DNA of 43,084 nt from contig LVAM01000021.1 in NCBI GenBank assembly GCA_001604005.1, positions 1 through 43,084 of the forward strand, given 5' to 3'. The translations under genes and the position numbers were made by a program. Below the pieces are notes generated by a model. It was given only the letters and a program-made list of their open reading frames with translations. It was not told where the DNA came from and did not search any database. Position 1 is the first letter of the stretch. Every line of letters begins with the position of its first letter. Below are positions 8,555-43,084 of the stretch, in pieces. The stretch is from Clostridiales bacterium Firm_07. Its GTDB lineage: Bacteria > Bacillota > Clostridia > Oscillospirales > CAG-272.

Positions 8555-8619
8555 ATTAGTATAGGTTCGGATAAAATGGCCCGAATGTTTCTACCGCACG
8601 CCAAGTTGCGACTACTGAT
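8555..8619 (+). promoter_or_regulatory. Guanine-sensing purine riboswitch aptamer
   Basis: A purine riboswitch that binds guanine (or hypoxanthine) and stops transcription of salvage and uptake genes. P1 forms between ATTAGTA (8555-8561) and TACTGAT (8613-8619). P2 pairs TTCGG with CCGAA. The invariant junction GTTTCTACC lies at 8587-8595 and P3 is CGCA/TGCG. The base before P1' is C at 8612 (GACTAC), the position that selects guanine over adenine. Loops L2 (ATAAAATGG) and L3 (CGCCAAGT) differ somewhat from the usual kissing loops. Confidence 0.9.
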
Positions 8620-8622
8620 TGC

Positions 8623-8657
8623 ACATCCACATTTCCCGTGGATGTTGTTTCGTTTTT
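8623..8657 (+). terminator. Riboswitch terminator hairpin
   Basis: ACATCCAC pairs with GTGGATGT around a 7-nt loop and is followed by a T-rich tract (TGTTTCGTTTTT). It begins four bases after the aptamer and is the likely expression platform. Confidence 0.75.
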
Positions 8658-24986: not shown

Positions 24987-25648
24987 AGCGACTCCTTTTC
25001 TTGTTTGATAACGGTAATTTTTCGGCGGTCGGGGTGCTCCGCGTCGATTTTTTCGATCTTCACGTCAAAGCGGGAGTCGGGGAGCGCGTACGGGATCTTT
25101 TCGCTCCATTCCGTCAGGATCACGCCCTCGCGCGCGAGAAAATCGTCAAATCCGATCGAATAAAGATCGTCTTCGCTCTCGATGCGGTAAAGGTCAAAGT
25201 GAAAGACGGGGAATTTTTCTCCGTGATATTCGTTGACAAGGGTAAAAGTGGGAGAATGCACCGTTTTACCGGGTGCGAAATGCGCGGCAAAGCCCCGCAC
25301 AAACGCGGTTTTTCCGACGCCGAGATCCCCGTAAAGCGCCACGAAGCGGGGGAGCGCCCCGTCGTTTTCGATCTCCCGTGCCAGCGCGCGTCCCGCCGCT
25401 TCGGTCTCTTCCGTCGAGGCGGTAAAGGTCACGCGGTAGGCGTCGGGGCTTTTCTTGCTTAGTTTTTCGCGCGTGCCGTCGGGTCTCTCCACAACGGCGC
25501 CGGAGAGCATCGCGCCGAAAGAGGCGCGGATCTCGGCAAGATATTCGGCGCGCAGTGCCGCTTGTTCGTCTTTTTCTTCCGCCGTCAGCGCGCGCTCCCG
25601 CGCGGCGCGGGCAAGCGCGTTGATGCGGTCGATCTTTTCTTTGTTCAT
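24980..25648 (-). CDS. tsaE: TsaE ATPase with an N-terminal DUF896 (YnzC-like) domain
   Basis: TsaE is the ATPase that resets the TsaBD complex during t6A synthesis. The 222-residue product is some 70 residues longer than a usual TsaE. Residues 1-65 match DUF896/YnzC: KIDRINALARAARERALTAE, then EEKDEQAALRAEYLAEIRAS and a short VERPDGTREKL tail. TsaE proper starts near 72, with Walker A GDLGVGKT (107-114), SPTFTLVNEY (132-141), FHFDLYRIE and ILTEWSEKI (177-185, the family Trp). ATG 25646-25648 is one base after the pheT stop, with no clear ribosome site, so translation is probably coupled. An upstream ATG (25726) lies inside pheT. DUF896 proteins are normally separate and small, so this fusion is unusual. 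The DUF896 match is by eye but strong. Confidence 0.9.
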   Translation of the reverse strand: MNKEKIDRINALARAARERALTAEEKDEQAALRAEYLAEIRASFGAMLSGAVVERPDGTREKLSKKSPDAYRVTFTASTEETEAAGRALAREIENDGALPRFVALYGDLGVGKTAFVRGFAAHFAPGKTVHSPTFTLVNEYHGEKFPVFHFDLYRIESEDDLYSIGFDDFLAREGVILTEWSEKIPYALPDSRFDVKIEKIDAEHPDRRKITVIKQEKESLC

Positions 25649-25649
25649 T

Positions 25650-28043
25650 TTAAGCACGCAGAGAAAGTCCGAGTTCGCGGTCAAGCAACGCCACGACTTT
25701 TTTAGAGACCTTTTCGGCGTCTTCAAGCGTCAGCGTGTGGTCGTCGGCGCGCAACGTCATACGGAACGAGACCGATTTTTTGCCTTCGCCTACCTGCGGA
25801 CCGCGGTAAATGTCAAAAAGACGCACGTCTTCGGTCTGTTTGCCGCCCGCTTTGCGGAGCACCGCCTCGATCGTACCGATCTCGGTCGCCTCGTCGCACA
25901 CAAGCGAGAAGTCGCGGGTGATGGCGGGATATTTGGGCAGAGGACGATACGGTTTCTCGGCAACGCGCAGTTCAAAGAGCGCGTCGAGATCCAATTCCGC
26001 GGCAAAGAGCGGAACGTCGGTGCCGTAAGCGGCGGCAACGGTGGGGTGGATCTGTCCCATCGTGCCGATCACGCGCTCGCCCGCGCGAATATGCGCCGAG
26101 CGACCGGGATGGTACGCGGCGTCTTTTACGGTCGCGGTGAAGACCGCGTTTTCAATGCCCGCCACGGACAGGAGATTTTCTATAACGCCTTTCAGCGTGT
26201 AAAAATCCACGTCGCCGTACATACCGAGAGCAAGGCGTTTGCCCTCAAAGGGCAGTTCGCCCTCGTCGGCGGAGGGAATATAGACAGAGCCGTTTTCAAA
26301 CAGCCGCACGTTTTCGTTTTGGAAGTTGAGATTGCGGATCAGCACGTCGAGCATCGAGGGCAGGAGAGTACGGCGCATCACGCTCGTATCCTCGCCCAGC
26401 GGGTTGGAAATGACCACCGAGCGCGCCGCCTCGTCGTCCTGTGCGATGCCGATCTTCGTATAGTTTTTGGGGGAGATAAAGGAGAAGGTTTGAATTTCGT
26501 CCAGTCCCATACCAAGCAATGCACTCTCCATCGCCACGCGGAACGCCTGCGCGGGGGATCTGCCGCCCCTTGTCGTTTCGGCGCAAATGTTGGTGGCGTT
26601 GATCTTATCGTAGCCGTAAATGCGGATGATCTCCTCCGCGATGTCGTTCATACAGGCAAGATCGCGGCGGAAGGAGGGCACGACGATTTTTCCGTCTTCC
26701 ACGCGGCAATCGAGCGCCGTGAGGATCTTGACCATCTCCTCGGCGGCGATATTTGTGCCGAGAAACGCGTTGTAGCGGTCGGGCGTAAAGGGGAGCGTGA
26801 CGGTTTCGGGTTTTGCGGGATAGGCGTCGATCACGCCGTCCACCACGTCGCCCGCGTCAAGCAGTTCCACAAGTTCGCAGGCGCGAAGCAGAGCCGGCAG
26901 GCAGTTTTCGGGATCCAGTCCCTTTTCAAATCGCGCGGAAGACTCGGTGCGCAGTCCGTTTTTCTGCGCGCTCACGCGCACCGAAGGACCGGAAAAGCAC
27001 GCCGATTCAAACACTACGGTGTTTGTTGCCGCGGTGATCTCACTGTTTTCGCCGCCCATTACGCCGGCAAGAGCGCAGGGTTTTTCACCGTCCGCGATGA
27101 CGAGCATCGAAGAGGCGAGCGTGTGGTCGGAACCGTCCAGCGCGCGGAAAGGTTCACCCTCGGCGGCGCGGCGCACCGTGATGGTGTTGCCGCCCAGCAT
27201 CGCATAGTCGAAAGCGTGCATCGGCTGACCGTATTCGAGCATCACGTAGTTGGTGATGTCCACGATATTGTTGATGGGGCGCACACCCGCCGCGAAAAGG
27301 CGCATACGGAGCCAACGGGGAGAGGGTGCAATACGCACGTTTTTGATTACTTTCGCGGCGTAACGGAAGCAGAGGTCGGGCGCGAGATTTTTGACGGTGA
27401 GATAGTTTTTCACGTCGCCTCCACAACCCTTGACGGCGGGTGCGGGAAGTTTCCACGGTTTACCGAAGGAAACGGCGCTCTCGCGCGCAAGTCCGATGAC
27501 CGAAAGGCAATCGGGGCGGTTGGAGGTGATTTCAAACTCGACCGAAGTGTCGTCCAGCATCAGCACTTTGCGGATATCTTCTCCGATATGCGCGGCGCAT
27601 TCCTCTTCGTCAAGGATCAGAATGCCGTTTTCCTCTTTGCCGGGGCATTCGTGTGCGGAAAGCCCCAGTTCTCCCATCGAGCAGAGCATACCGTCCGATT
27701 GTACCCCGCGCAGTTTGCCGGGTTTGATGACCACGCCGCCGGGGAGTTTTGCCACGGGGAGTGCGGCGGGGACGAGCGCGCCCTCGAAAACGTTTTGCGC
27801 GCCGGTCACGATCTGTACGTCCTCGCCTTTTCCGACGTCCATCGTGCAGATCTGCAAATGGTCGCTGTCGGGGTGCGGCACGATCTTTTTGATGCGCGCC
27901 ACCACGACGTTCTCGATCTCCGCGCCGAGAATTTCATAACCTTCCACTTTCGAGCCGGTCAGCGTCATACGGTCGCAGTAAGTTTGTATATCGGTGTTGC
28001 CGAGATCCACGAAATCGGCAAGCCATTTCCAAGACAAATTCAT
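25650..28043 (-). CDS. pheT: Phenylalanyl-tRNA synthetase beta subunit
   Basis: Beta subunit of the alpha2-beta2 PheRS, which carries tRNA binding and editing. The 797 residues are full length. The order is MNLSWKWLADFVDL start, EMAP-type tRNA-binding domain (about 40-150; VVARIKKIVPHPDSDHLQIC, KLRGVQSDGMLCSMGELGLS), B3/4 editing domain (about 210-380), B5 domain (about 400-475), catalytic-like core, and a C-terminal FDX-ACB anticodon domain starting RPLPKYPAITRDFSLV. It follows pheS by 15 bp. The opposite strand holds a long shadow frame that is not a gene. Confidence 0.97.
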   Translation of the reverse strand: MNLSWKWLADFVDLGNTDIQTYCDRMTLTGSKVEGYEILGAEIENVVVARIKKIVPHPDSDHLQICTMDVGKGEDVQIVTGAQNVFEGALVPAALPVAKLPGGVVIKPGKLRGVQSDGMLCSMGELGLSAHECPGKEENGILILDEEECAAHIGEDIRKVLMLDDTSVEFEITSNRPDCLSVIGLARESAVSFGKPWKLPAPAVKGCGGDVKNYLTVKNLAPDLCFRYAAKVIKNVRIAPSPRWLRMRLFAAGVRPINNIVDITNYVMLEYGQPMHAFDYAMLGGNTITVRRAAEGEPFRALDGSDHTLASSMLVIADGEKPCALAGVMGGENSEITAATNTVVFESACFSGPSVRVSAQKNGLRTESSARFEKGLDPENCLPALLRACELVELLDAGDVVDGVIDAYPAKPETVTLPFTPDRYNAFLGTNIAAEEMVKILTALDCRVEDGKIVVPSFRRDLACMNDIAEEIIRIYGYDKINATNICAETTRGGRSPAQAFRVAMESALLGMGLDEIQTFSFISPKNYTKIGIAQDDEAARSVVISNPLGEDTSVMRRTLLPSMLDVLIRNLNFQNENVRLFENGSVYIPSADEGELPFEGKRLALGMYGDVDFYTLKGVIENLLSVAGIENAVFTATVKDAAYHPGRSAHIRAGERVIGTMGQIHPTVAAAYGTDVPLFAAELDLDALFELRVAEKPYRPLPKYPAITRDFSLVCDEATEIGTIEAVLRKAGGKQTEDVRLFDIYRGPQVGEGKKSVSFRMTLRADDHTLTLEDAEKVSKKVVALLDRELGLSLRA

Positions 28044-28058
28044 CGCGTTTCTCCCTTC

Positions 28059-29072
28059 TTAAAACTGTCCGAGAAAGCGTTCGTCATTCTCGTAAAAGAG
28101 GCGGATGTCGTCAATGCCGTAGTGCTTCATCGCCACGCGCTCGATGCCCATACCGAAAGCGAAACCGCTGTACACTTCGGGATCGATACCGCAGTTGGAA
28201 AGCACGAAAGGATGCACCATACCGGCGCCGAGAATCTCGATCCAGCCCTCGCCCTTGCACACGCGGCAGCCCTTGCCGCCGCAGGCAAAGCAGGAGACGT
28301 CCACTTCCGCCGAAGGCTCGGTAAAGGGGAAGTGGTGCGGACGGAAACGGATCTTGGTCTCCTCGCCGAACATTTGTTTGGCAAAAGTTTCGAGCGTGCC
28401 TTTCAGGTCACTCATCGTGATGCCTTTATCCACGACAAGCCCTTCCATTTGTTGAAAAAGCGGGGAGTGCGTCGCGTCCAGCGCGTCGGAACGGTAGACG
28501 CGGCCGGGCGAAATGATGCGAATGGGGGGCTTTTGCTTCTCCATCACGCGCACCTGCACGGGGGAAGTCTGCGAGCGGAGCAGGATCTTGTCGGAAATAT
28601 AGAAAGTGTCCTGCGTGTCGCGCGCGGGGTGATTTTCGGGGATATTGAGCGCCTGGAAGTTGTAGTAATCATACTCCACTTCGGGTCCTTCGGCGATGGA
28701 GAAGCCCATACCGATAAAAACATCTTCCATCTCGCGGCGCACGCGCGTTAAGGGGTGCTGATGCCCCATACGCACGGGCGTGCCGGGCATCGTGACGTCC
28801 AGTTTTTCTTTTTCGAGACGATGGGCGAGCGCGCGTTCTTTTTGACGCGCCATACGCTCCGCGATGGCGTTTTCGATCGCGGTACGCACTTCGTTGGCAA
28901 GTTGTCCCATCGCGGGGCGGTCTTCGGGGGAGAGCGCGCCCATTCCGCGCAAAACGGTGGTCAGTTCGCCTTTTTTACCGAGAAAGCGCACGCGCGTCTG
29001 TTCGACGTCCGCGGCGGCGTCGGAGATCTCGGCAAGGGCAGCCGCCCGAATTTTCTCCAAAAGTTCTTTCAT
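28059..29072 (-). CDS. pheS: Phenylalanyl-tRNA synthetase alpha subunit
   Basis: Catalytic subunit of PheRS. The 337-residue product starts with a coiled-coil arm (about 1-85) and has class II motifs: [20 protein letters not shown] (motif 1 region), [20 protein letters not shown] (motif 2) and [15 protein letters not shown] (motif 3). It also has the Cys-rich strand [12 protein letters not shown] typical of bacterial PheS. The start at ATG 29070-29072 is preceded by AAGGA about 10 nt upstream; the longer open frame runs into the T-box leader. First gene of the T-box-controlled operon. Confidence 0.97.
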
Positions 29073-29460: not shown

Positions 29461-32400
29461 TCAAGCAGGCGTTGTGATGACGATGTCGCTTGCGGTGATC
29501 TGCGCGTCGCTCACGCCGCCGTCGTAACTGACGGTGATCGTGGCGTCGTCAAGCGGCACGTTGAGGATGGAATCCACGTAACAGCGGATCGGGCTGTTCG
29601 TTGTGCCGGCAGGCAGGATAAACGCCGTGTTGCTGCCCACGATCAAGGTGTTTTCCACGTTTGCGGCAAGGTGGATACAAGTGCCCGCAGTGCCGTTTTG
29701 CGTCAGCGTGGCGTTCTCCACCGTGATCGTGGCGGTGCTGTTTGTGTGCACGAGAGAATAGTTCACGGTGGCGGCGTTTCTTGTGGAGATGTCGGCGCCG
29801 TCAATATGGAGCGCCGCGTCCGCCGCGTTGGCGACAAAGCCCCAATAGTTGCCTTGATAGACGCCGCCGTTCACGTACAGCGTGGTATTCGGACTGTAAT
29901 GGTAACTGATATAGACGCTGTTTGACGTGCCGCCGTGCGTCACGTTGAGATCGTTTACCGTCGCCACGGTGCCCTCGTTTCGCAGTTGCAGTGCGTGTTC
30001 ACCGCTGCTCTCGGTCATCGTTACGGTGTAGCTATTGCCGTTCACGGTCATGTTTTTCGTAAAGTTCGCACCGGTGGCGCTGGTGATGTCGTCGGACAGT
30101 TCGATACTGCCGTTTTCGGGGCAGAGCGCGGAGAGGAAGTTGAGGTCGGTGTTGGCGTCGCCCTCAAAGAGCGTTGTGCCGACGCTGTTTTTCACCGCTA
30201 CCGTAGGCGTGGCGCCGAGGGCGGTCTTCCACACGAAATTGCTTGCCGTCAAAGCGGCGTAGCTGTAGGTCGGGCGCGACGTCGGCGACGCCGCGGCGTG
30301 GATCACGGTGAGATCGCGGATTGTAAGATCGGTACCGATAAAGCGGAGTGCCGTGTCGGCGGAGCCCGACGTGAGGATCTTGTTGTTGCCGTTAAAGATG
30401 ATCGCGTTTTGGTTGGCGATATTCAGCGCGGTATGCAGTGTAACGTCGTCCAGCAGTGTCACGGTCGCACCGGCGGGCGCGTTGTTGAGCGCATAGGCGA
30501 GGTGGTTGTAATAGGTCGTCGTGCCGCCGCCTGTCACCGAAACAATGGCGTCCGGGGCGAGAGCGGTCGTCAGAGCCGGGTGCGCGAGATTTTGAGCGCA
30601 AACGACGTTGAGAAGTTTCGTTCCGACCATCTTGCCGATCAGCAGCATATCGTCCGCCGTCCAGTGCGCGCTGTCGCTGTCGCGGTAGCCGACGGCAAGT
30701 TTCGCGGTGTCCACCGTGTAGACGTCGGCAAATTCTCTTGCCAGTTCCCGCTGCATCGCCACAAAATTGTCTTGATTTTCGGTGTGCGTTCTGCCGAAGG
30801 AATCGGAGATCTCCCCGACCACAAAGGGCAGGGTGGCAAGATTTTCGCCCGTGATGGCGCCGAGGTCGGCGCGCAGGTCGCTTATCAGAGCGTTGAAGAG
30901 CGCGGGATAGGCATACGGGCTCTCAAAACTGCACATATCGACGTCCAGCGCCAAACCGTTCACAAGAACGCTCGTCACGTTGCGTTCGGCCTCTCCCTGC
31001 ATCCAAAATACGCCCTTGACACTGAAACGGTTATAACCCGCTTTGCGCAGTTCCGTGATGGCGCTTTCCACTTTGCAAAGCAAGTTCGTATATTGCTTGC
31101 CGGAAAGCGCGTTGTTGTTCTTGCCGTAAGTTTCAAGGTAAGAAGGCGGCGTCCAGGAGCCCTCGCGATAATCGGAGCCCTTGGTCGAGGTCGTCACAAA
31201 GGGATCCATCAGGTGCGTGCCGCCGTCCGCCCACTTCACGATGCAGGCGTCGCGGTCCACGGTGCCGGCGGCGCCGGTATAGTCACTGCCCTTGTAATAT
31301 TGCGAGAGAACTTCCGCCATACCGAGTTCCGCACCCATACGCGAGCCGTCAAAAGCTCCGCCGAGCCCGATGCTCACGGGGGCAAGAGCGGTGTCGCTGT
31401 AATTGAGACTGCCCGGGTAAGCGGAACCCGCCGCGCCGGAATACAGAACGTGCTCGTACGTTTCGGTGTGCGCGCTTGCAAACGCGTCGGTGATGCCGCT
31501 GTATCCGGAGGCGTTGGATTGGCCCGCGATGATATAGAGATCCACGGCCTTCGGGCTGTACGTCGCGCCGAAAGAGGTCAAAATGGCGCGTTGTCTTACC
31601 GAATAGCGTGAGTAGCGTCCTTCAAAGCGGTTGAGATAATCGCCTGTGCTCACGTCGCGCAAGTCGTTGAGCGCGATTTGGGCGACGTCACTGACCGAGC
31701 GCGCGTTGTCGCTCTCGTCGTAGTTGCCGTAGCAACGCCGCAAAATCCCTTCGCCGTCGGTGTAATCGGCGTAGAGCATAGAGGCGAATTTGCGCGTATA
31801 GTTGCCCGTTTTGATGTCGATCATCGAGGCGCGGATCGTCAGCGAATCATCGCTTTCCACGGTGATGCCGTGAACGGTGGGGATTTTCAGATAAATTTTG
31901 CTTGCCGCGATCAGGGCTTCCTCGGTAAAGGAAATGCCGTCAAGGTAATCCACCGGCACGATCAACGTGCCGTAAGAAATGCTTGTGCCGGGCAGCATCA
32001 CGCTCTCGATACGCTCGATAAAGGCGGCGGAGACCACGGAAGTAAAGCGGATACCGGGGTGCTCGTCGTTAAGCCTGACCGACGCGCCCGAAACCGCCGA
32101 GAGGTTATTCAGAGACGCGCGGCGCGCAAAGGCGGGATAGCGAATGGTCTGCGACACGTCTTCCGCATCCTCGCCGCACTGATAGATGGCGCCGTTGCCG
32201 TAGCACACGTAAGACACGAGATTGACGGTGGCGTTTCCGCTCGGGTTGGCGGCGGAGAAGAAGGTGTGCCAATAGCGGGTGGATTCTTTCACAAACACGC
32301 CGCCGTAGATGTTGGCGGTGCTGGCAACGGTGGCGTTGTTGGTGCTTGTGCGCACGCTGTACGTGTGCGAGTTTCCGGTGTAGGTGCTGGTAAAGAACCC

Positions 32401-34668
32401 GCCGTAGACGTTGAGCGTGGCGGAGCCTGAATCCGTGCCCGCTTGCAGAAGGGAAACGGTGTTGGAGGTAAAGACGCCGCCGTAAATGTTGGCGGTACCG
32501 ACTATCCAGAAAGCAAGTTCTCTGTATTCTCCGGTACGAGTAAAGGTGCCGTTTTTGATCGTCAGCGTGCCGCCCGAAACTTTGATGATGCCGTCGTTCA
32601 GCCCGATAAAGGTGCCGCCGTTCACGGTCACGGGGGTGGCGTTGTTGATGTTGACGATAAAGTTGCCGTTATAGGCGCCCGAGATCCTTTGCAGCGTGCC
32701 GCCGTTCACGGTGATCGAAGCGACGGTAGTTTCCGCGTAGAGCGCGGCGCCGCGCGTGTGGATCGTGCCGCCGTTTATGATGATCGTGGCGCCGGTGGAA
32801 GAGCCGATGCCGCGGTAAGTGCCGGTGATCGGCGCGCCTTCCGCATTGGAAGACGTGCCGGTGATCAGACCGCCGTTCATCGTGATGGTGGCGGAGCCGG
32901 AGTTGTTCCAGACGGCAAGACCGCTGGCGTTGGCGCCCGATTGGAGATACGCGCCCTCGTTGATCGTGACGTTGGCGGCGGATTCCAGTTCCAGCACGCG
33001 GCCGGCGGAAATGAGGCGCGCGTTGCTGCCGATCACAAGATTTCCGGTCGCGTTGCTGCGCGACAGCACCGGGTAACCGGAGGCGGTGCTTTGCATCGTC
33101 AGCGCGTCGGCGGTGCCGCCCAGCGTGACGGTGCCCACTGCGTTGGCGTTATAGAGCACGAGCACCGAGCCGGAAACGACGTAAGAGCCGGAGAGAATGT
33201 TGAGCGCACCGCTTGTGCGGTAGCGGAAAACGCCGGTGGCATCGGAAATCGTGAGGTTTCGGAAAGTGGCGGTATAGTTTTTGTTGGCGCCCGAGAGGTC
33301 AAAAATATCCTGCGCGCCGGCAGGCGCGGCAAAATTACCGCCCGAAACCTCGACGTTGGCGCCCTCCGAGAAGACGAAGCGCGAGCTGCCCGAGCGGAAA
33401 TTGCCGCCCGAAATGTTGATCGTGCCCACCGAACCGCCGACAAGACAGGTGGCGCTGTAATCGACGGAGCCGAACGTGCCGCCCGTAATGGTGGTCACGG
33501 TCGTGCCGCCGTTCTGCCAGATCATATGTTGCGCGGTGGTGGTGACAAACGAGCCGCCGGAGATGTTCAGCGTTGTGGTGGCGCGCAGATTAAAGACGCG
33601 CCAAACCGATGAAAAACTCGGCGGAGCGGTGGGATCGGCGGCGCTGATGGAGAGGGTGGCGCCCGCCACGCCGGCGTCATAGATCGTGGCAAAGGCACCG
33701 GTGGCGGTGAAGGTGCCGCCCGAGACCGTGATGGCGTTGACGGAAGGATTGGCGCTGACGTAGAAGACGCCCGAGATCGGCGCGTTGGACGTGCCCGCTA
33801 CCGACGTGGTAAAGGAGCCGCCGGAAATATTGAGGCGCAGTCCCGCGTTGCGGCAGTTGATGATCTGCTTGATCGAGGAGAAATTGCCCGCCGAAATATT
33901 GACGGTGCCCGCCGTGTTGAGGTCAAAGAGACAGGAAGCGTCGTTGCCCGCCGTCCGCACGAAAGAGGGCGTTTCGTCGTCGTCGTTGACGGTGATGACG
34001 CCCGTGTAACTCTCGGCAAAAATGACGTTTTGATAGGCCTCAAAAGAGCCGCCCGAAATCACGACGGGCGCCGCGCCCGAGGGGCGAATGATACACCGCG
34101 TGCCGGAGTTTCCGACAAAGGTGCCGCCCTTGATCAGCAGATATCCGCCGGCGGTGGTGGAGCCGAGCGAGATAAAGCGTCCGTCCGAAGAAAAGGGAAC
34201 GACGTGGTATGTGCCGCCGTCGATTGCCAGTTTGGCGGCGCCGGACAGAAGGACCGTCCGCGGCGAGGAGGAGGGCTGGGTGTGCCCGTCAAAGGTGCAA
34301 TCTTTCAGCGTAACGTTGCCGCTCGTGGAGATGCGGAGCGGGGTGGCGTTGGTGCTTTGCAGTTGCACGTAAGCGTCGTTGAAGGTCACGGCGCCGTCAA
34401 ACGTGAGGAAAGCACCGCCGCCCACGGTCAGTTTGGCGTTGTTTGCCGTATTGACGGTGAGATTTTTGTCAAACGTGAGATTGGCGGAGACGGTCTCGTC
34501 CGCCACAAGGGTGATGACGTCGCCGGGGGCGGCCGCGGCAACGGCGTCCGGCAAGGTATAGGAGCCGGAACCGTTCACTTGGCATTCCGCCGACACGATC
34601 TGCGCCGACAGGCAAACAAGGGTGACGAGAATGGCAAAGAAGACGAGATATTTCAGCGTTGTTTTCAT
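29461..34668 (-). CDS. Giant secreted beta-helix protein with SGNH/SASA esterase domain (paralogue 1, 1735 aa)
   Basis: A secreted multidomain protein, probably acting on extracellular glycans. Residues 1-27 form a signal peptide (basic start, hydrophobic core, VSA cleavage). About 28-830 are beta-helix-like repeats, dominated by motifs such as ISGGSF and VNGGTF. About 845-1040 is a domain common in clostridial surface proteins but unnamed, with FARRASL, HPGIRFTS, ISYGTLIVPVD and ARSVSDVAQIALND. About 1043-1355 is an SGNH hydrolase of the SASA/CE6-like type: Ser in IIAGQSNASGY, VFWMQGEAER and Asp/His in DSDSAHWTADD. About 1365-1735 is more repeat structure. No LPXTG, SLH, dockerin or C-terminal membrane anchor is seen. 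The ribosome site is AAGGAGG. Acetyl-ester hydrolysis is inferred from the domain; the substrate is unknown. Confidence 0.85.
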   Translation of the reverse strand: MKTTLKYLVFFAILVTLVCLSAQIVSAECQVNGSGSYTLPDAVAAAAPGDVITLVADETVSANLTFDKNLTVNTANNAKLTVGGGAFLTFDGAVTFNDAYVQLQSTNATPLRISTSGNVTLKDCTFDGHTQPSSSPRTVLLSGAAKLAIDGGTYHVVPFSSDGRFISLGSTTAGGYLLIKGGTFVGNSGTRCIIRPSGAAPVVISGGSFEAYQNVIFAESYTGVITVNDDDETPSFVRTAGNDASCLFDLNTAGTVNISAGNFSSIKQIINCRNAGLRLNISGGSFTTSVAGTSNAPISGVFYVSANPSVNAITVSGGTFTATGAFATIYDAGVAGATLSISAADPTAPPSFSSVWRVFNLRATTTLNISGGSFVTTTAQHMIWQNGGTTVTTITGGTFGSVDYSATCLVGGSVGTINISGGNFRSGSSRFVFSEGANVEVSGGNFAAPAGAQDIFDLSGANKNYTATFRNLTISDATGVFRYRTSGALNILSGSYVVSGSVLVLYNANAVGTVTLGGTADALTMQSTASGYPVLSRSNATGNLVIGSNARLISAGRVLELESAANVTINEGAYLQSGANASGLAVWNNSGSATITMNGGLITGTSSNAEGAPITGTYRGIGSSTGATIIINGGTIHTRGAALYAETTVASITVNGGTLQRISGAYNGNFIVNINNATPVTVNGGTFIGLNDGIIKVSGGTLTIKNGTFTRTGEYRELAFWIVGTANIYGGVFTSNTVSLLQAGTDSGSATLNVYGGFFTSTYTGNSHTYSVRTSTNNATVASTANIYGGVFVKESTRYWHTFFSAANPSGNATVNLVSYVCYGNGAIYQCGEDAEDVSQTIRYPAFARRASLNNLSAVSGASVRLNDEHPGIRFTSVVSAAFIERIESVMLPGTSISYGTLIVPVDYLDGISFTEEALIAASKIYLKIPTVHGITVESDDSLTIRASMIDIKTGNYTRKFASMLYADYTDGEGILRRCYGNYDESDNARSVSDVAQIALNDLRDVSTGDYLNRFEGRYSRYSVRQRAILTSFGATYSPKAVDLYIIAGQSNASGYSGITDAFASAHTETYEHVLYSGAAGSAYPGSLNYSDTALAPVSIGLGGAFDGSRMGAELGMAEVLSQYYKGSDYTGAAGTVDRDACIVKWADGGTHLMDPFVTTSTKGSDYREGSWTPPSYLETYGKNNNALSGKQYTNLLCKVESAITELRKAGYNRFSVKGVFWMQGEAERNVTSVLVNGLALDVDMCSFESPYAYPALFNALISDLRADLGAITGENLATLPFVVGEISDSFGRTHTENQDNFVAMQRELAREFADVYTVDTAKLAVGYRDSDSAHWTADDMLLIGKMVGTKLLNVVCAQNLAHPALTTALAPDAIVSVTGGGTTTYYNHLAYALNNAPAGATVTLLDDVTLHTALNIANQNAIIFNGNNKILTSGSADTALRFIGTDLTIRDLTVIHAAASPTSRPTYSYAALTASNFVWKTALGATPTVAVKNSVGTTLFEGDANTDLNFLSALCPENGSIELSDDITSATGANFTKNMTVNGNSYTVTMTESSGEHALQLRNEGTVATVNDLNVTHGGTSNSVYISYHYSPNTTLYVNGGVYQGNYWGFVANAADAALHIDGADISTRNAATVNYSLVHTNSTATITVENATLTQNGTAGTCIHLAANVENTLIVGSNTAFILPAGTTNSPIRCYVDSILNVPLDDATITVSYDGGVSDAQITASDIVITTPA

Positions 34669-34737
34669 CTTTTGTTCCTCCTTCGGTTTTGTACCGATAG
34701 AATCGCTTAAAGAGATGAGAACAATGTTGTTCGGGCG

Positions 34738-34770
34738 AAAAAAGTGCGCCGGAAAGTCTTCACGGCGCAC
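34738..34770 (-). terminator. Attenuator-like terminator in the leader of the 1735-residue protein gene
   Basis: GTGCGCCG and CGGCGCAC form a perfect 8-bp stem followed by T6 on the minus strand, about 30 nt after the predicted transcript start and 70 nt before the ATG. It would end transcription early unless prevented. Confidence 0.65.
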
Positions 34771-34805
34771 GTCGGGGCTATATGAAATTGTAAGTTTCTT
34801 CCATT

Positions 34806-34834
34806 ATTGTAGCAGAAAATATGCTTTTTGTCAA
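34806..34834 (-). promoter_or_regulatory. SigA promoter of the 1735-residue protein gene
   Basis: TTGACA (34829-34834), a 17-bp spacer and TACAAT (34806-34811) on the minus strand. The leader is about 130 nt. Apart from the promoter, attenuator, shared motif and paralogue terminator, nothing else is seen in the 34669-35043 gap. Confidence 0.82.
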
Positions 34835-34853
34835 ATGCCGCACTGCGTATTTT

Positions 34854-34876
34854 GAAAAAATCGGCGTTTTGCACAA
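34854..34876 (-). promoter_or_regulatory. Shared 23-bp upstream motif, copy 1
   Basis: On the minus strand the motif begins TTGTGCAAAACG and ends CGATTTTTTC. It lies exactly 19 bp upstream of the -35 box and differs from copy 2 (42905-42927) at a single base. A regulator site or UP-type element is likely. Confidence 0.7.
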
Positions 34877-35000
34877 ATTTACGCGACGAGCGGCGCAAAA
34901 CAAAGGGCGCTCTTGTCACTTTCGGCAAATTTTGCCGCACGCCGCAATTTGCGCCGCCCGTTTCTTCTTTTGCGGCGCGCCCGCCCTTGTCGCGGCAAGG

Positions 35001-35030
35001 AAAAGCCCCCTGCGCCGTGGCGCAGGGGGC
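35001..35030 (-). terminator. Terminator of the 2541-residue secreted protein gene
   Basis: GCCCCCTGCGCC and GGCGCAGGGGGC form a 12-bp stem followed by TTTTCC on the minus strand. It differs from the terminator at 29409-29446 by one compensated base pair. Confidence 0.75.
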
Positions 35031-35043
35031 GGGGAATTGTGCG

Positions 35044-38000
35044 TTAGGTGTGGCTGGTCATATCGCCGGCGGTGATCTGCGCGCTGGACGTGCCGCCGTT
35101 CGTGCTGACGGTGATGGTCGCATCGTCAAGCGGAACGGTGATGGTTGCGCCCGTCTTGTAGCGGATCGCCGTGTTGGTCGTGCCGGAGGGCAGGACAAAC
35201 GCGGTGTTCTCACCGACAACCAGAGTGCCGCTGCCGTTGATGTGGATGCCGGCGCCGGTCTTGGAGCCCTGTCTAATGGTGGAGTTTGACACGGTGACGG
35301 TACCGGTGGTGCTCTTCATAATGACCGAGTAGTTCACGGAACCGGCATTCTTAGTGGAGGCCGTAACGCCGTTCAACGTGAGGTCGGAGCCGGCGTTGTT
35401 GGCGACAAAGACCCAATAGTTGCCCTGATAGGTGCCGCCGTTCACGGTCAGCGTGTTGGCCGCGTTCTGATACGACAGATAAGCGCTCGTGCTGGTGCCG
35501 TTGTGCGTCATATTGAGGTTGTTGAGGACCACGTCCGTGCCGCTGCCGTAAATCTGCAACGCGATGGCGTTTGCGCTCATCGTGATCGTTTTACCCGCGC
35601 CGTTGATGGTGATATCTCGGGTGAGGTTCAGCGATTTGGTAAGCGTCAGGTTCGCGCTGAGCGTCAGGCTGCCGCCCGCGGGGCAGGCGTAAACCGCCCA
35701 TTCGATGTTCGCCATATTCGATTGCAACGTCGTGTCGCCGCTGTCCTTCATCGTGATACCGCCGGAGGTGGTGGTCCATGCAAAGTTGGTCGCGGTGACC
35801 GATGCGTCCTCGAAGAAGCAACCCGATCCCACTTTCGCGCCGGCGTGCGTCACGGTCAGATTATTGATCGTGAGGTTGGTGCCGATAAAGCGGAGCGCGG
35901 TGTCGACGGAGTTCGAGGTGATCGTATGATTGCCGCCGTTAAAGGTGATGGCATTGCTGTTGGAGATGTTGATCGCGCTGTTGATCGTGGTGTCTTTGAG
36001 CAACGTCACCGTTGCGCCTGCGGGCGCGTAGTTGAGCGCGTAGGGCAGGTGGTTGTAATAGGTGGTGTTGCCGCCGCTTGTCACCGAAACGATGGCGTCA
36101 TCGGCGTCCGCGGTGGTGAGATAAGGCTCGTCAAGATCCATACCGCAAACGACGTTCAGGAGCTTGGTGCCCACCATCTTACCGATCAGCAACATATCGT
36201 CGGACGTCCAGTGTGCGGTGTCGCCGTCTTCATAGCCGACCGCCAGTTTCGTGTTGCCGATGGTGTAAACGTTGTCAAAGGTTGCCGCCATCGCGTTTTG
36301 CATCGCCACGAAAGCGGTTTGATAATCGTAGTGCGCTCTGCCGAAGGTTTCGGAGATTTCGCCGACCACGAAAGGCAGTTCGGAGAGGTCTTCGCCGGTC
36401 ATGGCGCCGAGGTCTTCGCGCAGGTCGCCCATCAGATAGTTGAAGAGCGCGGGATACGCGTAATCGCTCTCAAAGCTGCACATATCGACCGTAACGCTCG
36501 CGCCGCTCACGGTCACGGAGGTAACGGAGCGCTCGGATTCGCCCTGCATCCAGAAGACGCCCTTGACGTTGATCTGGTTGTAGCCCGCCTTGCGCAGTTG
36601 CGAAATGGCGTTCTGCATCTTTTCAAGCAGGTTGTAATACTGTTTGCCGGAGAGTGCCTCGTTGTTCTTGCCGTATTTGTCAAGATAGGAAGGAGGCGTC
36701 CAAGAGCCCTCGCGATAGTCGGAAGAACCGGTGTCAGCACCTCTGCCGAAGGCATCCATCAGGTGCGTGCCGCCGTCCGCCCATTTCACGATGCAGGCGT
36801 CGCGGTTCACGGTGCCTTCCGTTCCGTCGTAATCGTCGCCTTTGTAGTACTCGGAAAGCACAGCCGCCATACCGAGTTCCGCGCCGATGCGGTTGGAGGA
36901 GTAAGAGCCGCCGAGACCCTTGGTGACGGGTGCGAGGTCGGTCTTGGAATATTCAAGAGAGCCGGGATAAGCGGAGCCGGCGCCGCCGGAGAAGAGCACG
37001 TGCTCATAACTTTCGGTATGAGCGGCGCTGAAAGCGGAGGTCATCGTGCTGTAACCGGAAGCGTTGGATTGACCCGCGATGATGTAAATATCCACGGCTT
37101 TCGGCACAAAGGAAGCGCCGAAGCCTTCGAGAATGGCGCGCTGTCTCACGGACAAGCGAGAGTAGCAACGGTTGTAAAGACCCGTGGAGGAATCATACAC
37201 CGTGTAGGGGTTGAGATAATCGCCGTCTTTGGAGGTGCTTACGTCGTTGAGCGCCATTTGCGCCACGTCCGCGACCGAGCGGGCATTGCTGGCAACGTAA
37301 TCGCCGTAGCAATATCTCACCACGTTCTCGGTATCGGTGTATTTCGCGTACAGGATCGAGATGAACTGCTTGTTGTAGTTCTTCGCCTTGATGTCGATCA
37401 TCGAAGCGCGGATGGTCAGCGAGTCGTCGTCTTCCTCGGTAATACCGTTGACGGCGGGAATTTCAAGGAAGGTGATGCCCGCCGCGGTGAGCGCCTCTTT
37501 GGTAAAGGCGACGCTGTCGGTCAGGGAATCCACGGGCACGATCAGCGTGCCGTAAGAAATGCTGGTGCCTTCCTTCATCTGCGATTCGATGCGCTCGATA
37601 AAGGCGGCGGGAACTTCGGAGGTAAAGCGGATGCCGGGGTGATCCTCGTTGAGGCGGATCGCCGCGCCGGTGACAGCCGAGATGTTGTCAAGAGAAGCGC
37701 GCCGCGCGAAGTTTTGGAAGCGGATGGTCTTGGAAACGTCTTCCGAGCTTCCTTCGCCCTGTTGATAGATCGCGCCGTAACCGTAGCAGACGTAAGAGTT
37801 CAACGTCATAGAACCTTTGGTCGGGTGAGCCACCTCAAAGATGGTGTGTCTGCCTTTTTGGTTCTTGGTGACGTACACGCCGCCGTAGATGGTGGCGGTG
37901 CTGTCAACGGTGGTGTCGCTGGTGCCGACGCGCACGTTGGTGGTCAGCGAGCTCGACGTGTTGGTGCAGGTAAAGTAACCGCCGTAAACCGTCAGCGTGG

Positions 38001-41000
38001 CGGCATTACTTGCCGAGCCAATCTGCACAACGTCGGTGTCGGAGGTAAAGACGCCGCCGTAAATGGTGAGCGTGCCGTAGCAGCTGATCGCGCTACCGGA
38101 AGTGCCGGTAACGGTCGCGTTTTTGATGACGGCGGTGACGTTCGGGTTCGTGATCGAGATCGCGTTGCTACCGTTTGCGGAAATCGTGCCGCCGTTGATG
38201 GTCAGGGTGCCCGTCGCCGAGCCCTCGCTCAAAATGCCGTTATAGACGGTGCCGCTGATGGTGCCGCCGTTGATGGTAATGGTAGAGCCGGAAGAAGTGC
38301 CGAGACCGCGGCCGCCGGAGACCGAGCCGCCGTTCATCGTGATGGAACCTTTGCCGGCGTTGGACCAAACGCCCATATTGCCGCCGGAGACGCTGCCGCT
38401 GTCAATGGTGATGGCACCTGCCGCCGTCATTGTGATGCCGCGGCCGGTGGGAGCGGTCAGCGTTGCGCCGTCAAGGTGTACGGTCGGTGCGGTTGCCGCG
38501 CCGCTGTACAGGTACACGCAGGAGTGACCGGTGCTTGTGGAGGTGGTGGAGATCGTGCCGCCGTTGAGGTTCAGCGTCAAGGTGTCGGTCGCGTAGATCG
38601 TGTTGTTGGCGGAAGTGATCGTGCCGCCGTTGACGGTGACCGCGCAAGCTTTATCCAGGCTGAAACAAGCGGCGGTGGTGGAAGAGAGCGAGGCGGTGCC
38701 GGAGATCGTGATCGGATTCGCGGGGGTGGTGGATTCGATACGCACCACGACGCCGCTGGTTTTGGCGGAAAGGGTACCGCCCGAGATGGTGATGGTGGCG
38801 CCGGTGGAAGTGCCGACGCAGCGCGAGGAGTTGCGGATCTGACCGCCATTGATCGTGATCGAGCCCGCGCCGCCGTTTGCCCAGATACCGAAACCGCCGA
38901 CGTTGATATCACCGTCGGTAAGGGTGACCGAGCCGGCAGAGCACAGTGTGATGCCGCGTCCGCCCGCGGAATAAAGCGTGCCGCCGTTGATGACGATGGT
39001 GGGCGCGCCCGCGGCGTAAACGCAGGAATAATCACTGGTGCTGCCGGTGGTTTCCACCGTGCCGCCGTTGAGGTTCAGCGTGCCGGCGGCGTTGGTTCTG
39101 ATGGTGTGCACGGAGGAGGTGAGCGTGCCGCCCGTCATAGTGAACGCGTAGCCCGCCGCGTTCAGGTAGACCGCGTAGCCGCTGGTGGAGGAGATCTCGG
39201 CGCTATCCTGCACGTTCAGCGTGGAGCCCGAGCCGAAATGGATCGCCGATTGACCGTCGCTGGCGGCGGTGCTGCGCACCTTGGCGCTGCCGCGCACCGT
39301 AACGGTGGTGGCGCCCGATGCCGTGTAGACGGCGGGATTGGTCGTGCCGGTGGTGGTGAGGATCGCCGTTCCGCTGATATCCACGGTGGTGGCAACGCGC
39401 AGATCCAGCACGTAATCGCCGGAAGTCATCGTGCCGCCCGAGATGTTGAGCGGGCAGGCGGTCGTATTACTGACGCATTTACCGGTCCCCGCGATGATGG
39501 TGCCGCCCGACATATTGAGCGTGCAACCCGCAAAGTTCATATAAAAGCAGCTGCCGTCGCCCTGGCTTGCGTCGATGGTGCCGCCGTCAACGGTGACGGT
39601 GGTAACTTTGCTGTACACCGCGATGCCCGTGCCGTTGGCGCGCACCGTGATGGTACCGCCGTGCAACACGACAGCCGCGCCGCCGGAAGTGCCGATGCCG
39701 CGCGCGGTGCCGGTGACGGAACCGCCGTTGGTGGTGGTGCCCGTGATGGTGCCGCCGTTCATCGTGATGGTGGGTTGCGTTTCCCAAGTGCCGAGGTTTT
39801 GCCAAATGGCGATACCTTCACCGCTGGCGCCGCTTTGCAGATAAGCGCCGGCGTTGATGGTGATGTCGGTGGATGCGGTCATATTGAGCACGCGGCTGTA
39901 GGAAATGAGGTTCGCGTTGTTATCGATCGTCAGCGAGCCGGCGGGATAGCCGTTTGCTGCGCTTCCGAATCCCTCAACGACGTAGTTGGAGCCGGTGGAG
40001 CTCATCGTCAGGGTGGCTTCCGTGCCGCCCAGCGTGATGTTGCCGCAGGCGTTGGAATACCACATTTTCAGCGTGGAACCGGTGGAAGTGAAGGTGCCGG
40101 ATTTGATGTTGAGCGTGGCGGCGCCGCTGTAATAGAAGACGTTGGTCACGCCCGACACCGTGATGTTTTCGATATTGACGGTGCAGGCTTTTGCTGTGTT
40201 AAAGCAGAAGACCATGGTGGCGGTGGAAGCGGCGGTATAGGTGCCGCCCGTCACGTTGATGTTGGCGCCCTGACCGTACAGAATGCGCCCGCCGGTGGTG
40301 CGGAAATCGCCGCCCGAAATGGTCAGCGTACCGGCACTGCCGCCGATCACGGTGTTGGGGTTGCCCACGGTGGTGACGTCGTCAACGACCTTAAAGCCGA
40401 AATTACCGCCCGTAACGGTGGTAGAAACGCCGCTGGCGTTCTGCCAGATCATATGTTCGGCGGTGGAGGAGGTATAGAAAGTACCGCCCGAAATGGTCAC
40501 CGTTGTATTGTTGCTATACAGGTTGAAAAGACGCCACGCGGAGGAGAAGAAGGGAGAACCGCTGATTGTCAGCGTGATGCCGGAGACTTCGGGTTGGAAA
40601 ACGGAGGCATATGCGCCGGTCGAGACAAAGGAACCGCCCGAAATCTCAAATTCGGCGGGGGCGTAAGTGAAATCAAAGACAGCGGAAACAAAAGGATGAT
40701 CGCCTGTTCCGGAGCCCGCGTAGGCAGCGGTAAAGGAGCCGCCCGAAATGTGCAACTTGGTATTGGCGGCGGCGCCGTAAAACAGAGGCTTAACGGTGGA
40801 AGCGGAGGAGATCACGGCGTTGTCCTGCACGTTGAGGGTAGCCGCGGAGTAGAAATAGATCGGCGAATAGCCGCCCGCGTTGGTGCAGCTGACCGTGGCG
40901 GAATTTTTGATTGTGATGACCGAAGCGCCCGATGCCGTGTAGATGGTGGGGTTCGACGTGCCGGTGGAAGTGAGCGACGCGTTGTCTTCAATCGTCACGG

Positions 41001-42669
41001 TAGCGGCTTTACGCAAATTCAAAACGTAATCGGAAGAGGAAAGTGTCGCCGAATCGGAGATCGTCAGCGTGGAGCCGACGCTGTCAAAATAAACGGCGGA
41101 GCCGGTGCCCGCGGAAATCGTCGAGGTGCCGGAAATTTCAACCTCGACTCCACCCGCCGTGACGTAGATCACGTTGCTGGAGGAAGAGGAAGAAAACGTA
41201 ACGTTTTCAAGGGTTACGGGCGTGGCGGGAGCGACGCCCTCGATAAAGAGTTGGTTGCCGGGGCAAGCGATGGTGCAGTTGCTAAGCGAAATCGCGGCGC
41301 CCGTGGAAGAACCGACCGCGCGGCTGGAGTTTTCAATGCGGCCGCCCGAAACGGTGATGGTGGCGACGCCGTTGTTTGCCCAGATGCCGAAACCGCCCAC
41401 CGAAATGGTGCCCGCCGTCATCGTCAGCGTGCCGGCGGAATTCATCGTGACGCCGCGTCCGTTTGTCGAGGAGAGCGTGGCACCGCCGAGATTGATGGTG
41501 GAAGCGCCCGCATCGTAAATGCAGGATTCCGAAGAGGTGATCGAGATCGTGCCGGCGTTGAGGTTCAGCGTACTTGCGTGCGCAAGGTTGAAAACGCGCC
41601 AAGCGGAGGTGAAGGCGGGGGCGGGAGTTTCCGCGTCGCCGTCATCCGAAACGGTAAATTTAGCATTCGCGAGAAAGCTGTGATACACCGCGGAATATGC
41701 GCCGGTGGTCCGGAAAGAGCCGCCCGTGATATTGACAACTGCGGTCGTCACGGCACCGTTCATCCAAAAGATGCCCGAAACCGGCGCGGCGGAAGTGCCC
41801 GCTAACGAAGAGGTAAAGGTACCGCCCGAAACGTTCAGTTTCAAACTTGTGTTTCTGACGTTGAAGATTTCTCTTGTGCAGGTGAAAGTGCCGCCGGATA
41901 TACTGATCGTGCCGGCGGTGTTGAGGTCAAACATGCGATAAGCGTCGGAACCCGTTTTGGTTATGGTACAGCCTCTTGTGTTCACGCAAGAAGATCCTTC
42001 TTGGAAAAAGGCTTCGCCGTTTACCAAATTGACGGTAGCGTTATTCACCGTTGTGACGGAAGTGTTGGAACCGCCGAAGATAGTTCTGCTGTTTCCGCTG
42101 TTGGTATACGTACCGCCGGTAACGTTGGTTTTAGCGCCTGCGATGTTAGACCACACCCAGTACATATTGCCGGCGCCGTAAGAAGATCCCAAAGACACGG
42201 TGCAGTCCGTCAGGTTCAGCGTGCCGCCGGAACTGTTGAGAAATATTCTGGCACCGGATGCTTTGGTTGTAGAAGTAAGGGTCACGGTGTCAACGGTAAC
42301 CGTAGGGGCACCGCCGCTGAGATATACGGCATAGGTGCCGCTGCTGGTCAAGTTACAGTCCGAGATGGTGACGGTCTGATTTGTACCGTTTTTAATCAAC
42401 AAATAATTGCTGCCCAATGCCAGCGTTTTCGGAGAGCTCGGATCCGATGTGATCGTCAGGCTCTTTGAAATGGTCAGTGTGGCTGACAGCGTTTCGTTTG
42501 CCGTGATGGTGATGGTGTCACCGTTGCTCGCGGCCGTGTAGGCGGCGGCAAGCGAAGCGTATTCGGTTTCGCCGATCTGGCATGTCGCGGAAGCCGCCAG
42601 CGCCGTAAAGGCAACAAAGGCGACGAGCAGAACTGCCAAGAAGAGTAGGTGCTTGAAGCGTGTTTTCAT
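35044..42669 (-). CDS. Giant secreted beta-helix protein with SGNH/SASA esterase domain (paralogue 2, 2541 aa)
   Basis: Longer paralogue of the neighbouring secreted esterase-like protein. The signal peptide is residues 1-28 (ALAASA cleavage) and the mature protein begins TCQIG, matching ECQVN in paralogue 1. Beta-helix-like repeats fill about 29-1640, roughly twice the length in paralogue 1. The GIRF domain is at about 1650-1855 (FARRASL, HPGIRFTS, YGTLIVPVD). The SGNH/SASA domain is at about 1858-2165: IIAGQSNASGY with the likely Ser, VFWMQGESER, and GDTAHWTSDD with the Asp-x-x-His pair. A second repeat region (about 2190-2541) ends SSAQITAGDM, as in paralogue 1. No surface anchor is seen. 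The start has AGGAGGAG. Repetitive DNA means the assembled length should be treated with some care. Confidence 0.85.
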   Translation of the reverse strand: MKTRFKHLLFLAVLLVAFVAFTALAASATCQIGETEYASLAAAYTAASNGDTITITANETLSATLTISKSLTITSDPSSPKTLALGSNYLLIKNGTNQTVTISDCNLTSSGTYAVYLSGGAPTVTVDTVTLTSTTKASGARIFLNSSGGTLNLTDCTVSLGSSYGAGNMYWVWSNIAGAKTNVTGGTYTNSGNSRTIFGGSNTSVTTVNNATVNLVNGEAFFQEGSSCVNTRGCTITKTGSDAYRMFDLNTAGTISISGGTFTCTREIFNVRNTSLKLNVSGGTFTSSLAGTSAAPVSGIFWMNGAVTTAVVNITGGSFRTTGAYSAVYHSFLANAKFTVSDDGDAETPAPAFTSAWRVFNLAHASTLNLNAGTISITSSESCIYDAGASTINLGGATLSSTNGRGVTMNSAGTLTMTAGTISVGGFGIWANNGVATITVSGGRIENSSRAVGSSTGAAISLSNCTIACPGNQLFIEGVAPATPVTLENVTFSSSSSSNVIYVTAGGVEVEISGTSTISAGTGSAVYFDSVGSTLTISDSATLSSSDYVLNLRKAATVTIEDNASLTSTGTSNPTIYTASGASVITIKNSATVSCTNAGGYSPIYFYSAATLNVQDNAVISSASTVKPLFYGAAANTKLHISGGSFTAAYAGSGTGDHPFVSAVFDFTYAPAEFEISGGSFVSTGAYASVFQPEVSGITLTISGSPFFSSAWRLFNLYSNNTTVTISGGTFYTSSTAEHMIWQNASGVSTTVTGGNFGFKVVDDVTTVGNPNTVIGGSAGTLTISGGDFRTTGGRILYGQGANINVTGGTYTAASTATMVFCFNTAKACTVNIENITVSGVTNVFYYSGAATLNIKSGTFTSTGSTLKMWYSNACGNITLGGTEATLTMSSTGSNYVVEGFGSAANGYPAGSLTIDNNANLISYSRVLNMTASTDITINAGAYLQSGASGEGIAIWQNLGTWETQPTITMNGGTITGTTTNGGSVTGTARGIGTSGGAAVVLHGGTITVRANGTGIAVYSKVTTVTVDGGTIDASQGDGSCFYMNFAGCTLNMSGGTIIAGTGKCVSNTTACPLNISGGTMTSGDYVLDLRVATTVDISGTAILTTTGTTNPAVYTASGATTVTVRGSAKVRSTAASDGQSAIHFGSGSTLNVQDSAEISSTSGYAVYLNAAGYAFTMTGGTLTSSVHTIRTNAAGTLNLNGGTVETTGSTSDYSCVYAAGAPTIVINGGTLYSAGGRGITLCSAGSVTLTDGDINVGGFGIWANGGAGSITINGGQIRNSSRCVGTSTGATITISGGTLSAKTSGVVVRIESTTPANPITISGTASLSSTTAACFSLDKACAVTVNGGTITSANNTIYATDTLTLNLNGGTISTTSTSTGHSCVYLYSGAATAPTVHLDGATLTAPTGRGITMTAAGAITIDSGSVSGGNMGVWSNAGKGSITMNGGSVSGGRGLGTSSGSTITINGGTISGTVYNGILSEGSATGTLTINGGTISANGSNAISITNPNVTAVIKNATVTGTSGSAISCYGTLTIYGGVFTSDTDVVQIGSASNAATLTVYGGYFTCTNTSSSLTTNVRVGTSDTTVDSTATIYGGVYVTKNQKGRHTIFEVAHPTKGSMTLNSYVCYGYGAIYQQGEGSSEDVSKTIRFQNFARRASLDNISAVTGAAIRLNEDHPGIRFTSEVPAAFIERIESQMKEGTSISYGTLIVPVDSLTDSVAFTKEALTAAGITFLEIPAVNGITEEDDDSLTIRASMIDIKAKNYNKQFISILYAKYTDTENVVRYCYGDYVASNARSVADVAQMALNDVSTSKDGDYLNPYTVYDSSTGLYNRCYSRLSVRQRAILEGFGASFVPKAVDIYIIAGQSNASGYSTMTSAFSAAHTESYEHVLFSGGAGSAYPGSLEYSKTDLAPVTKGLGGSYSSNRIGAELGMAAVLSEYYKGDDYDGTEGTVNRDACIVKWADGGTHLMDAFGRGADTGSSDYREGSWTPPSYLDKYGKNNEALSGKQYYNLLEKMQNAISQLRKAGYNQINVKGVFWMQGESERSVTSVTVSGASVTVDMCSFESDYAYPALFNYLMGDLREDLGAMTGEDLSELPFVVGEISETFGRAHYDYQTAFVAMQNAMAATFDNVYTIGNTKLAVGYEDGDTAHWTSDDMLLIGKMVGTKLLNVVCGMDLDEPYLTTADADDAIVSVTSGGNTTYYNHLPYALNYAPAGATVTLLKDTTINSAINISNSNAITFNGGNHTITSNSVDTALRFIGTNLTINNLTVTHAGAKVGSGCFFEDASVTATNFAWTTTSGGITMKDSGDTTLQSNMANIEWAVYACPAGGSLTLSANLTLTKSLNLTRDITINGAGKTITMSANAIALQIYGSGTDVVLNNLNMTHNGTSTSAYLSYQNAANTLTVNGGTYQGNYWVFVANNAGSDLTLNGVTASTKNAGSVNYSVIMKSTTGTVTVSNSTIRQGSKTGAGIHINGSGTLVVGENTAFVLPSGTTNTAIRYKTGATITVPLDDATITVSTNGGTSSAQITAGDMTSHT
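38230..41530 (-). repeat. Degenerate internal repeats in the beta-helix coding region
   Basis: About 85-residue modules sharing C-[IV]-Y, GRG-[IV]-T, GG-x-GIWAN or a variant, and G-T/S-S-x-G are encoded near 41530-41280, 39045-38780 and 38530-38230. A second pair shares DYVL-[ND]-LR, a TASGA block and LNVQD (near 41100-40800 and 39500-39200). At DNA level the plus strand repeats GTGCCGCCGTTGATGGT-like strings many times. Confidence 0.7.
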
Positions 42670-42856: not shown

Positions 42857-42885
42857 ATTTTAGCACGCAACGTCGATTTTGTCAA
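42857..42885 (-). promoter_or_regulatory. SigA promoter of the 2541-residue protein gene
   Basis: TTGACA (42880-42885), a 17-bp spacer and TAAAAT (42857-42862) on the minus strand. Confidence 0.82.
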
Positions 42886-42927: not shown

Positions 42928-43045
42928 CGAAATGTGCTTCAACTCCGCAAAAAAGCCTTGTCTCCCCCTCCCGCGCCCCGCGTCGCGCCGCGCGCAAAAT
43001 CGCGCTCCGCGCCCTCGCCGCCGCGCCTTTCCCGCGCCGCGCGCA

Positions 43046-43080
43046 AAAAGCCGCCCCGCACGGCAAGCGCCGTGCGGGGC
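43046..43080 (-). terminator. Probable terminator of a gene beyond the right edge
   Basis: GCCCCGCACGGC and GCCGTGCGGGGC form a 12-bp stem followed on the minus strand by GGCTTTTTG. Form and flanks resemble the two terminators of the giant genes. The 42928-43045 stretch shows no supported feature. Confidence 0.6.
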
Positions 43081-43084
43081 GGGG

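Follow-up and report, generated by a model that had tools for sequence, protein, structure and literature searches.

A five-gene array of predicted exported beta-helix giants with SGNH esterase-type domains in a likely gut-dwelling member of the Clostridia

The stretch of DNA analysed here (the window; 43,084 nucleotides) is the whole of contig LVAM01000021.1 (C21) of Clostridiales bacterium Firm_07, a likely gut-dwelling member of the Clostridia, whose genome bin comprises 1.66 Mb in 61 contigs and is 82% complete. Two adjacent minus-strand genes of the window encode the giant paralogous proteins P1 and P2, in which a conserved block labelled GIRF and an SGNH-type esterase domain of the SASA family are placed between two long repeat regions. 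P1 and P2 are members of a five-gene array, three further giants (A, B, and C) being located at the start of contig C19. Four of the five copies retain the active-site residues of the esterase family, and copy B has lost key ones. With moderate confidence, we favour the interpretation that these proteins are secreted binding rods carrying an O-acetylesterase and that B is a binding-only copy.

Organization and origin of the gene array

The initial annotation described two adjacent paralogues of 1735 and 2541 amino acids (aa) on the minus strand, and the frames, starts, and lengths agree with this description (Table 1). Both genes are real, but the pair was incomplete: searches of the bin with SASA and with the GIRF segment identified A (2984 aa), B (1829 aa), and C (1715 aa), all on the minus strand of C19, with lengths counted from likely ATG starts. 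The terminal 89 base pairs (bp) of the window recur exactly at C19:18-106, and no other place in the bin matches over this length; C21 and C19 are therefore most likely neighbours in the genome. The order of transcription would be C, B, A, P2, and P1, with a span of ~33.8 kb computed from the coordinates. An assembly artefact caused by DNA-level tandem repeats was considered and rejected, as only one weak tandem array was detected. The array may conceivably be misassembled, though the 89-bp overlap is exact and specific to the two places. One flank of the array contains pheT/pheS (recognized by eye) and tsaE, and the opposite flank contains two ABC transporter genes. The segment directly preceding the overlap with the window (C19:1-17; L006 1-17) resembles an Illumina adapter end and is presumably a trimming leftover in the assembly.

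P1 and P2 share 48% identity (P1 aa 194-1729 and P2 aa 992-2537), and their common domain order, as originally proposed, is supported by the profiles and by the predicted structure. The identity of the GIRF-SASA core to that of P1 is 70% in P2, 66% in A, 37% in B, and 44% in C. A phylogeny of 59 SASA domains places the five array members in one clade (98/83); duplication within this lineage is therefore the most likely origin of the array. The terminal branch of B is 1.5, compared with 0.12-0.53 for the other array members, and such long rows are placed unsurely by the tool used. A mobile element or phage origin was rejected because plasmid and phage collections yielded no match to the GIRF-SASA core at an expectation value (E) of 1e-5; eight loci in IMG/VR were matched on the SASA part only, and one of them (L158) encodes a 387-aa protein resembling the lipoprotein-type L102.

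A and B share an additional C-terminal domain (39% identity over 245 aa) with weak propeller resemblance, located at L006 141-1412 (-) and 9433-10242 (-). The profile of this propeller-like domain also matches L073 7040-9208 (-), a frame on contig C5 that has a small GIRF gene in its vicinity.

An AAGGAGG ribosome site is present ahead of both the P1 and P2 starts. The promoter-like sites of the two genes each match 11 of 12 consensus bases, and the terminator-like hairpins are GC-rich. The whole region contains 10 promoter-like sites (shuffled: 4.9) and 32 terminator-like sites (shuffled: 18.0), so any single site is weak evidence.

Table 1. Coordinates of the P1 and P2 genes, their domains, and the associated signals in the window
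Feature	Position	Strand	Basis or remark
P1, giant protein predicted to be exported, 1735 aa	29461..34668	-	ATG start at 34668
P1 N-terminal export signal, aa 1-28	34585..34668	-	predicted from sequence; no lipobox by pattern
P1 first beta-helix region, aa 29-845	32134..34584	-	
P1 GIRF domain, aa 848-1039	31552..32127	-	homology; model: Ig/FN3-like sandwich with helices
P1 SASA (SGNH) esterase domain, aa 1040-1357; GQSN, WMQGE, DSAH	30598..31551	-	profile, alignment, fold
P1 second beta-helix region, aa 1374-1735	29464..30549	-	model and fold matches; no motif excess
P2, giant protein predicted to be exported, 2541 aa	35044..42669	-	ATG start at 42669
P2 N-terminal export signal, aa 1-29	42583..42669	-	predicted from sequence; no lipobox by pattern
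P2 first beta-helix region, aa 30-1654	37708..42582	-	motif counts; Pfam Beta_helix below cut-off
P2 GIRF domain, aa 1655-1856	37102..37707	-	homology
P2 SASA esterase domain, aa 1857-2175; GQSN, WMQGE, DTAH	36145..37101	-	profile, alignment
P2 second repeat region, aa 2192-2541	35047..36096	-	homology to P1
Promoter-like site before P1, TTGACA-17-TACAAT, TG extended	34806..34834	-	consensus match only
Promoter-like site before P2, TTGACA-17-TAAAAT, TG extended	42857..42885	-	consensus match only
Terminator-like hairpin after P2	35005..35030	-	consensus match only
Terminator-like hairpin after P1	29421..29446	-	consensus match only
Terminator-like hairpin, would follow paralogue A	43051..43082	.	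inside the 89-bp overlap
Exact 89-bp overlap with C19:18-106	42996..43084	.	sequence identity

SASA domain and active site

The SASA family (PF03629) was matched by P1 (45.7 bits), P2 (45.3), A (46.4), and C (56.2), all above the Pfam cut-off of 24.8, and B gave no match at E <= 0.1. The model of P1 contains the SGNH alpha/beta/alpha fold. These results bear out the SGNH/SASA esterase domain originally described with GQSN and a DxxH-type end motif: AGQSN and D-S/T-A-H are both present, as is WMQGE, a block not named in the initial annotation. The best enzyme structure matches are CE6, CE20, SIAE, and NanS enzymes, annotated for plant or animal glycans. According to PMC9487903, a glutamine beside the serine completes the oxyanion hole in SASA/CE6 enzymes, block III carries QGE, and block V provides an acid and a histidine, the block V acid being missing in NanS.

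GQSN, WMQGE, and D-x-A-H are all kept in P1, P2, A, and C. The corresponding sites in B read GDSE, FMQGA, and NGGIW, meaning that the oxyanion glutamine, QGE, and the catalytic histidine have been lost. QGE is absent from 9 of the 59 SASA rows (QGA in B and QGC in eight), and seven of the eight QGC rows are complete over the sites checked; because eight rows carry QGC, a changed block III alone is no sign of a dead enzyme. Loss of both the glutamine and the histidine was found only in B and L060 among the 59 domains, of which L085 and L144 are incomplete and were not judged. This double loss thus affects 2 of 10 GIRF-linked domains vs none of 47 other SASA domains, a split with a chance of ~0.03 under random placement. 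L060 (3433-10464, +) is a GIRF-SASA giant from another genome of the same genus. Because B lacks the catalytic histidine and the oxyanion glutamine, deacetylation would not be the job of every array member.

GIRF domain

GIRF is a label coined in the initial annotation, which regarded it as a domain shared by P1 and P2. It is indeed one homologous block in the two proteins (68% identity), and profile searches assigned it to no named family: the blocks of P1 and P2 have no Pfam or NCBIfam match, comparison of 45 GIRF domains with Pfam at E <= 0.1 yielded 16 families that each matched 1 of the 45 members, and the 45-row profile gave a single match among PDB sequences, with an E of 0.46. The fold search returned a middling immunoglobulin (Ig)/FN3-type match and nothing better, and the best match in BFVD (E 2.6e-3) is an uncharacterised phage protein. 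The profile, Pfam, PDB-sequence, and fold searches therefore gave no clear support for membership in a known family.

With a profile built from the array's five GIRF-SASA cores, matches were obtained in 20 of the 21 genus genomes (own included) and in 3 of the 38 other genomes from the family and order. The 45-row GIRF profile had matches in 31 of the 394 genomes searched from the order (E <= 1e-5), and its only match among 398 genomes drawn from the phylum (E <= 1e-6) was the genome under study, the bin of which contains nine GIRF matches (five array members and four others). SASA following GIRF within a single frame was seen in 5 of the 21 genus genomes (own included) and in none of the 38 others. 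The same order was found in 5 of 61 genome_contigs loci (L097, L098, L100, L101, and L115), four of which are, judging by their length, the same contigs as in the genus genomes; in L139 the order is reversed, with SASA before GIRF. The survey of Clostridia suggested earlier gives a narrow distribution, to which L101 adds one further locus. L101 probably belongs to genome G804, which represents a different genus of the family: each has a 1643-residue GIRF frame. L101 clusters with SASA rows without GIRF (100/99), so the GIRF-SASA fusion either has multiple origins or was exchanged. Clostridia bins, many of them with a deer, goat, sheep, yak, or water buffalo label, make up the stronger of the 61 loci, and the weakest include other phyla.

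Among 57 GIRF frames whose 3' end is known, taken from selected loci, GIRF is followed by <=20 residues in 23, by <=50 in 26, and by 55 to 959 in the other 31. The modules found in GIRF proteins include SASA, SASA with a GDSL lipase, SASA before GIRF, DUF4886 (which we take to be SGNH-like), and metallo-beta-lactamase-like stretches below the Pfam cut-off. Such a stretch follows GIRF in three neighbouring giants in L071 1704-17152 (-) and in one in L083 4200-9230 (-), and L072 holds a trio of GIRF giants similar to those of L071.

Repeat regions, export, and anchoring

The motif GG[TSNDY][FILYVM] was counted and compared with 200 shuffles. The first repeat regions contain 15 motifs in P1 (shuffles mean 1.4, max 6; median spacing 24 residues) and 28 in P2 (mean 3.2, max 10; median spacing 27 residues). 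The second regions have no motif excess (0 in P1 and 2 in P2; shuffle means 0.2 and 0.4), and the helix assignment there therefore rests on the model. Structure prediction and the fold search covered P1 aa 600-1735, and this model contains the successive parallel beta coils of a right-handed beta-helix. The beta-helix-like repeats described in the initial annotation are thus supported for the first regions by motif excess and for the modelled part of P1 by the model, but not by the Pfam Beta_helix family, which scored 20.1 in P2 (cut-off 25.9) and had no match in P1.

Lipobox patterns are present in 33 of 49 SASA frames without GIRF (absent in 15 and cut in 1). Among 10 GIRF-linked frames, they are present in 2 (L101 and L057), absent in 5, and cut in 3, and the L057 pattern, at residue 99, was judged to be spurious. 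The earlier statement that no surface anchor is visible holds: by eye, the C-termini of P1 and P2 have neither an anchor nor a hydrophobic charged tail, and the sortase family (PF04203) has no match in the 82%-complete bin.

Proposed function and alternative explanations

The secreted glycan deacetylation system proposed in the initial annotation is supported in part. In the interpretation that we favour, the array specifies five large exported proteins, probably each transcribed alone, given the promoter- and terminator-like sites at P1 and P2. By their fold, the two beta-helix regions may be elongated, stiff rods, either bound to a polysaccharide or aligned along it, and the Ig-like GIRF and the SASA/CE6 SGNH domain would form a compact head between them. 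By analogy with its family, this head is expected to hydrolyse O-acetyl esters on that polysaccharide, which could open the polymer to other enzymes or release acetate. Because repeat length and the extra C-terminal propeller-like domain of A and B differ, the paralogues probably address different stretches or substrates; B probably binds only. Several points weigh against this interpretation. The beta-helix fold matches are at 10-14% identity and uninformative about ligands, and the fold support is limited to P1 aa 600-1735. Given the losses in B and L060, some family members probably lack esterase function. GH10 and BNR_2 sialidase, for which one search each was made, had no match in the 82%-complete bin, so no partner was found for the xylan and sialic-acid versions of the interpretation; these two contexts were rejected on this basis, other glycosidase families not having been searched.

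The losses would also fit an array composed mainly of surface or matrix adhesins diversified by duplication, in which the SGNH domain would have a role in binding or in trimming receptors and would be in the course of loss, as B illustrates. We regard this explanation as possible but clearly less probable: all hallmark residues are kept in four of the five copies, an anchor and a sortase match are both lacking as described above, the split of the double loss has a chance of ~0.03 under random placement, and long branches such as B are placed unsurely in the tree. Somewhat more doubtful still is the proposal that GIRF is an undescribed family serving sortase-independent retention or display of the giant exported proteins of the genus. 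As a C-terminal module, it would bind the envelope or some other partner, and SGNH esterases (SASA, GDSL, and DUF4886) or other hydrolases would have been added to it repeatedly; the array would then be such a display system with active and inactive copies side by side. It is unlikely that one of the beta-helices has polysaccharide lyase or epimerase activity of its own and works with the esterase, as P1 and P2 have no lyase, epimerase, or glycosidase family match at E <= 1 in Pfam and NCBIfam; the fold is common to lyases, epimerases, and adhesins, which fold matches therefore do not distinguish. Deacetylation of the cell's own wall or capsule polymer appears very improbable: giant extended repeats are, to our knowledge, unusual for envelope-acting SGNH enzymes, and the best structural enzyme matches are annotated for plant or animal glycans. 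In its favour, the neighbours examined (pheST, tsaE, and the ABC transporters) are no polysaccharide-utilization locus, and SGNH enzymes acting on bacterial envelopes exist (PMC9487903).

Other features of the window

A single open frame at 24983-25726 (-) combines DUF896 (aa 30-85) and TsaE (aa 103-229), which is either an unusual fusion or an unusual frame. A purine riboswitch aptamer match (37.5 bits; cut-off 37) is located at 8537-8634 (+). Two long open frames, one of 2100 aa antisense to P2 (35503-41805, +) and one of 1098 aa antisense to the pheT region (25455-28751, +), are most likely shadows of biased codons.

Significance and comparison with known systems

The ingredients are all of known kinds, except GIRF, to which the libraries searched give no family name. 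A five-gene array that includes an inactive-looking member, and the placement of an esterase between two beta-helices, are arrangements new to these libraries. No paper describing this architecture was found in the literature, searched by titles and abstract starts. The interest lies in GIRF and the active/inactive set rather than in the esterase. If the favoured interpretation is true, the array may indicate how a group of small-genome gut-type Clostridia gains very large exported glycan-acting proteins, GIRF would provide a handle on a class of proteins that the searched copies of Pfam and NCBIfam leave unnamed, and the paralogues would form a natural set of active- and inactive-looking copies with which to ask whether SGNH domains can become pure binding domains.

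Beta-helix adhesins, such as the L. reuteri SRRP binding region (5nxk/5ny0) and pneumococcal PfbA (3zpp), have the beta-helix in common with the array proteins, but here an esterase is added and no sortase or wall anchor is seen. The Cyanophage Pan3 tailspike (9vyh; 16% identity) differs in being a phage receptor-binding protein. Exported SASA proteins of gut Clostridia (for example, L099, L102, and L106) have close SASA sequences, and among them are giants that carry Ig-like (Big_2) and Listeria-Bacteroides repeats; however, such proteins are lipoproteins by pattern in 33 of 49 frames, carry no GIRF in the frame, and often have SASA at the C-terminus. CE20/SIAE acetylesterases (7kmm, 9ega, and 8f9p) have an SGNH core in which glutamine replaces the SGNH asparagine and to which beta-sandwich domains are adjacent (PMC12313940). 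The CE6/SASA esterases At4g34215 (2apj), CAC0529 (1zmb), and E. coli NanS (3pt5) are alike in profile, in the GQSN, QGE, and DxxH motifs, and in fold, whereas in the present system the domain resides within predicted exported repeat proteins of ~1700-3000 residues, encoded by a five-gene array with one inactive-looking copy.
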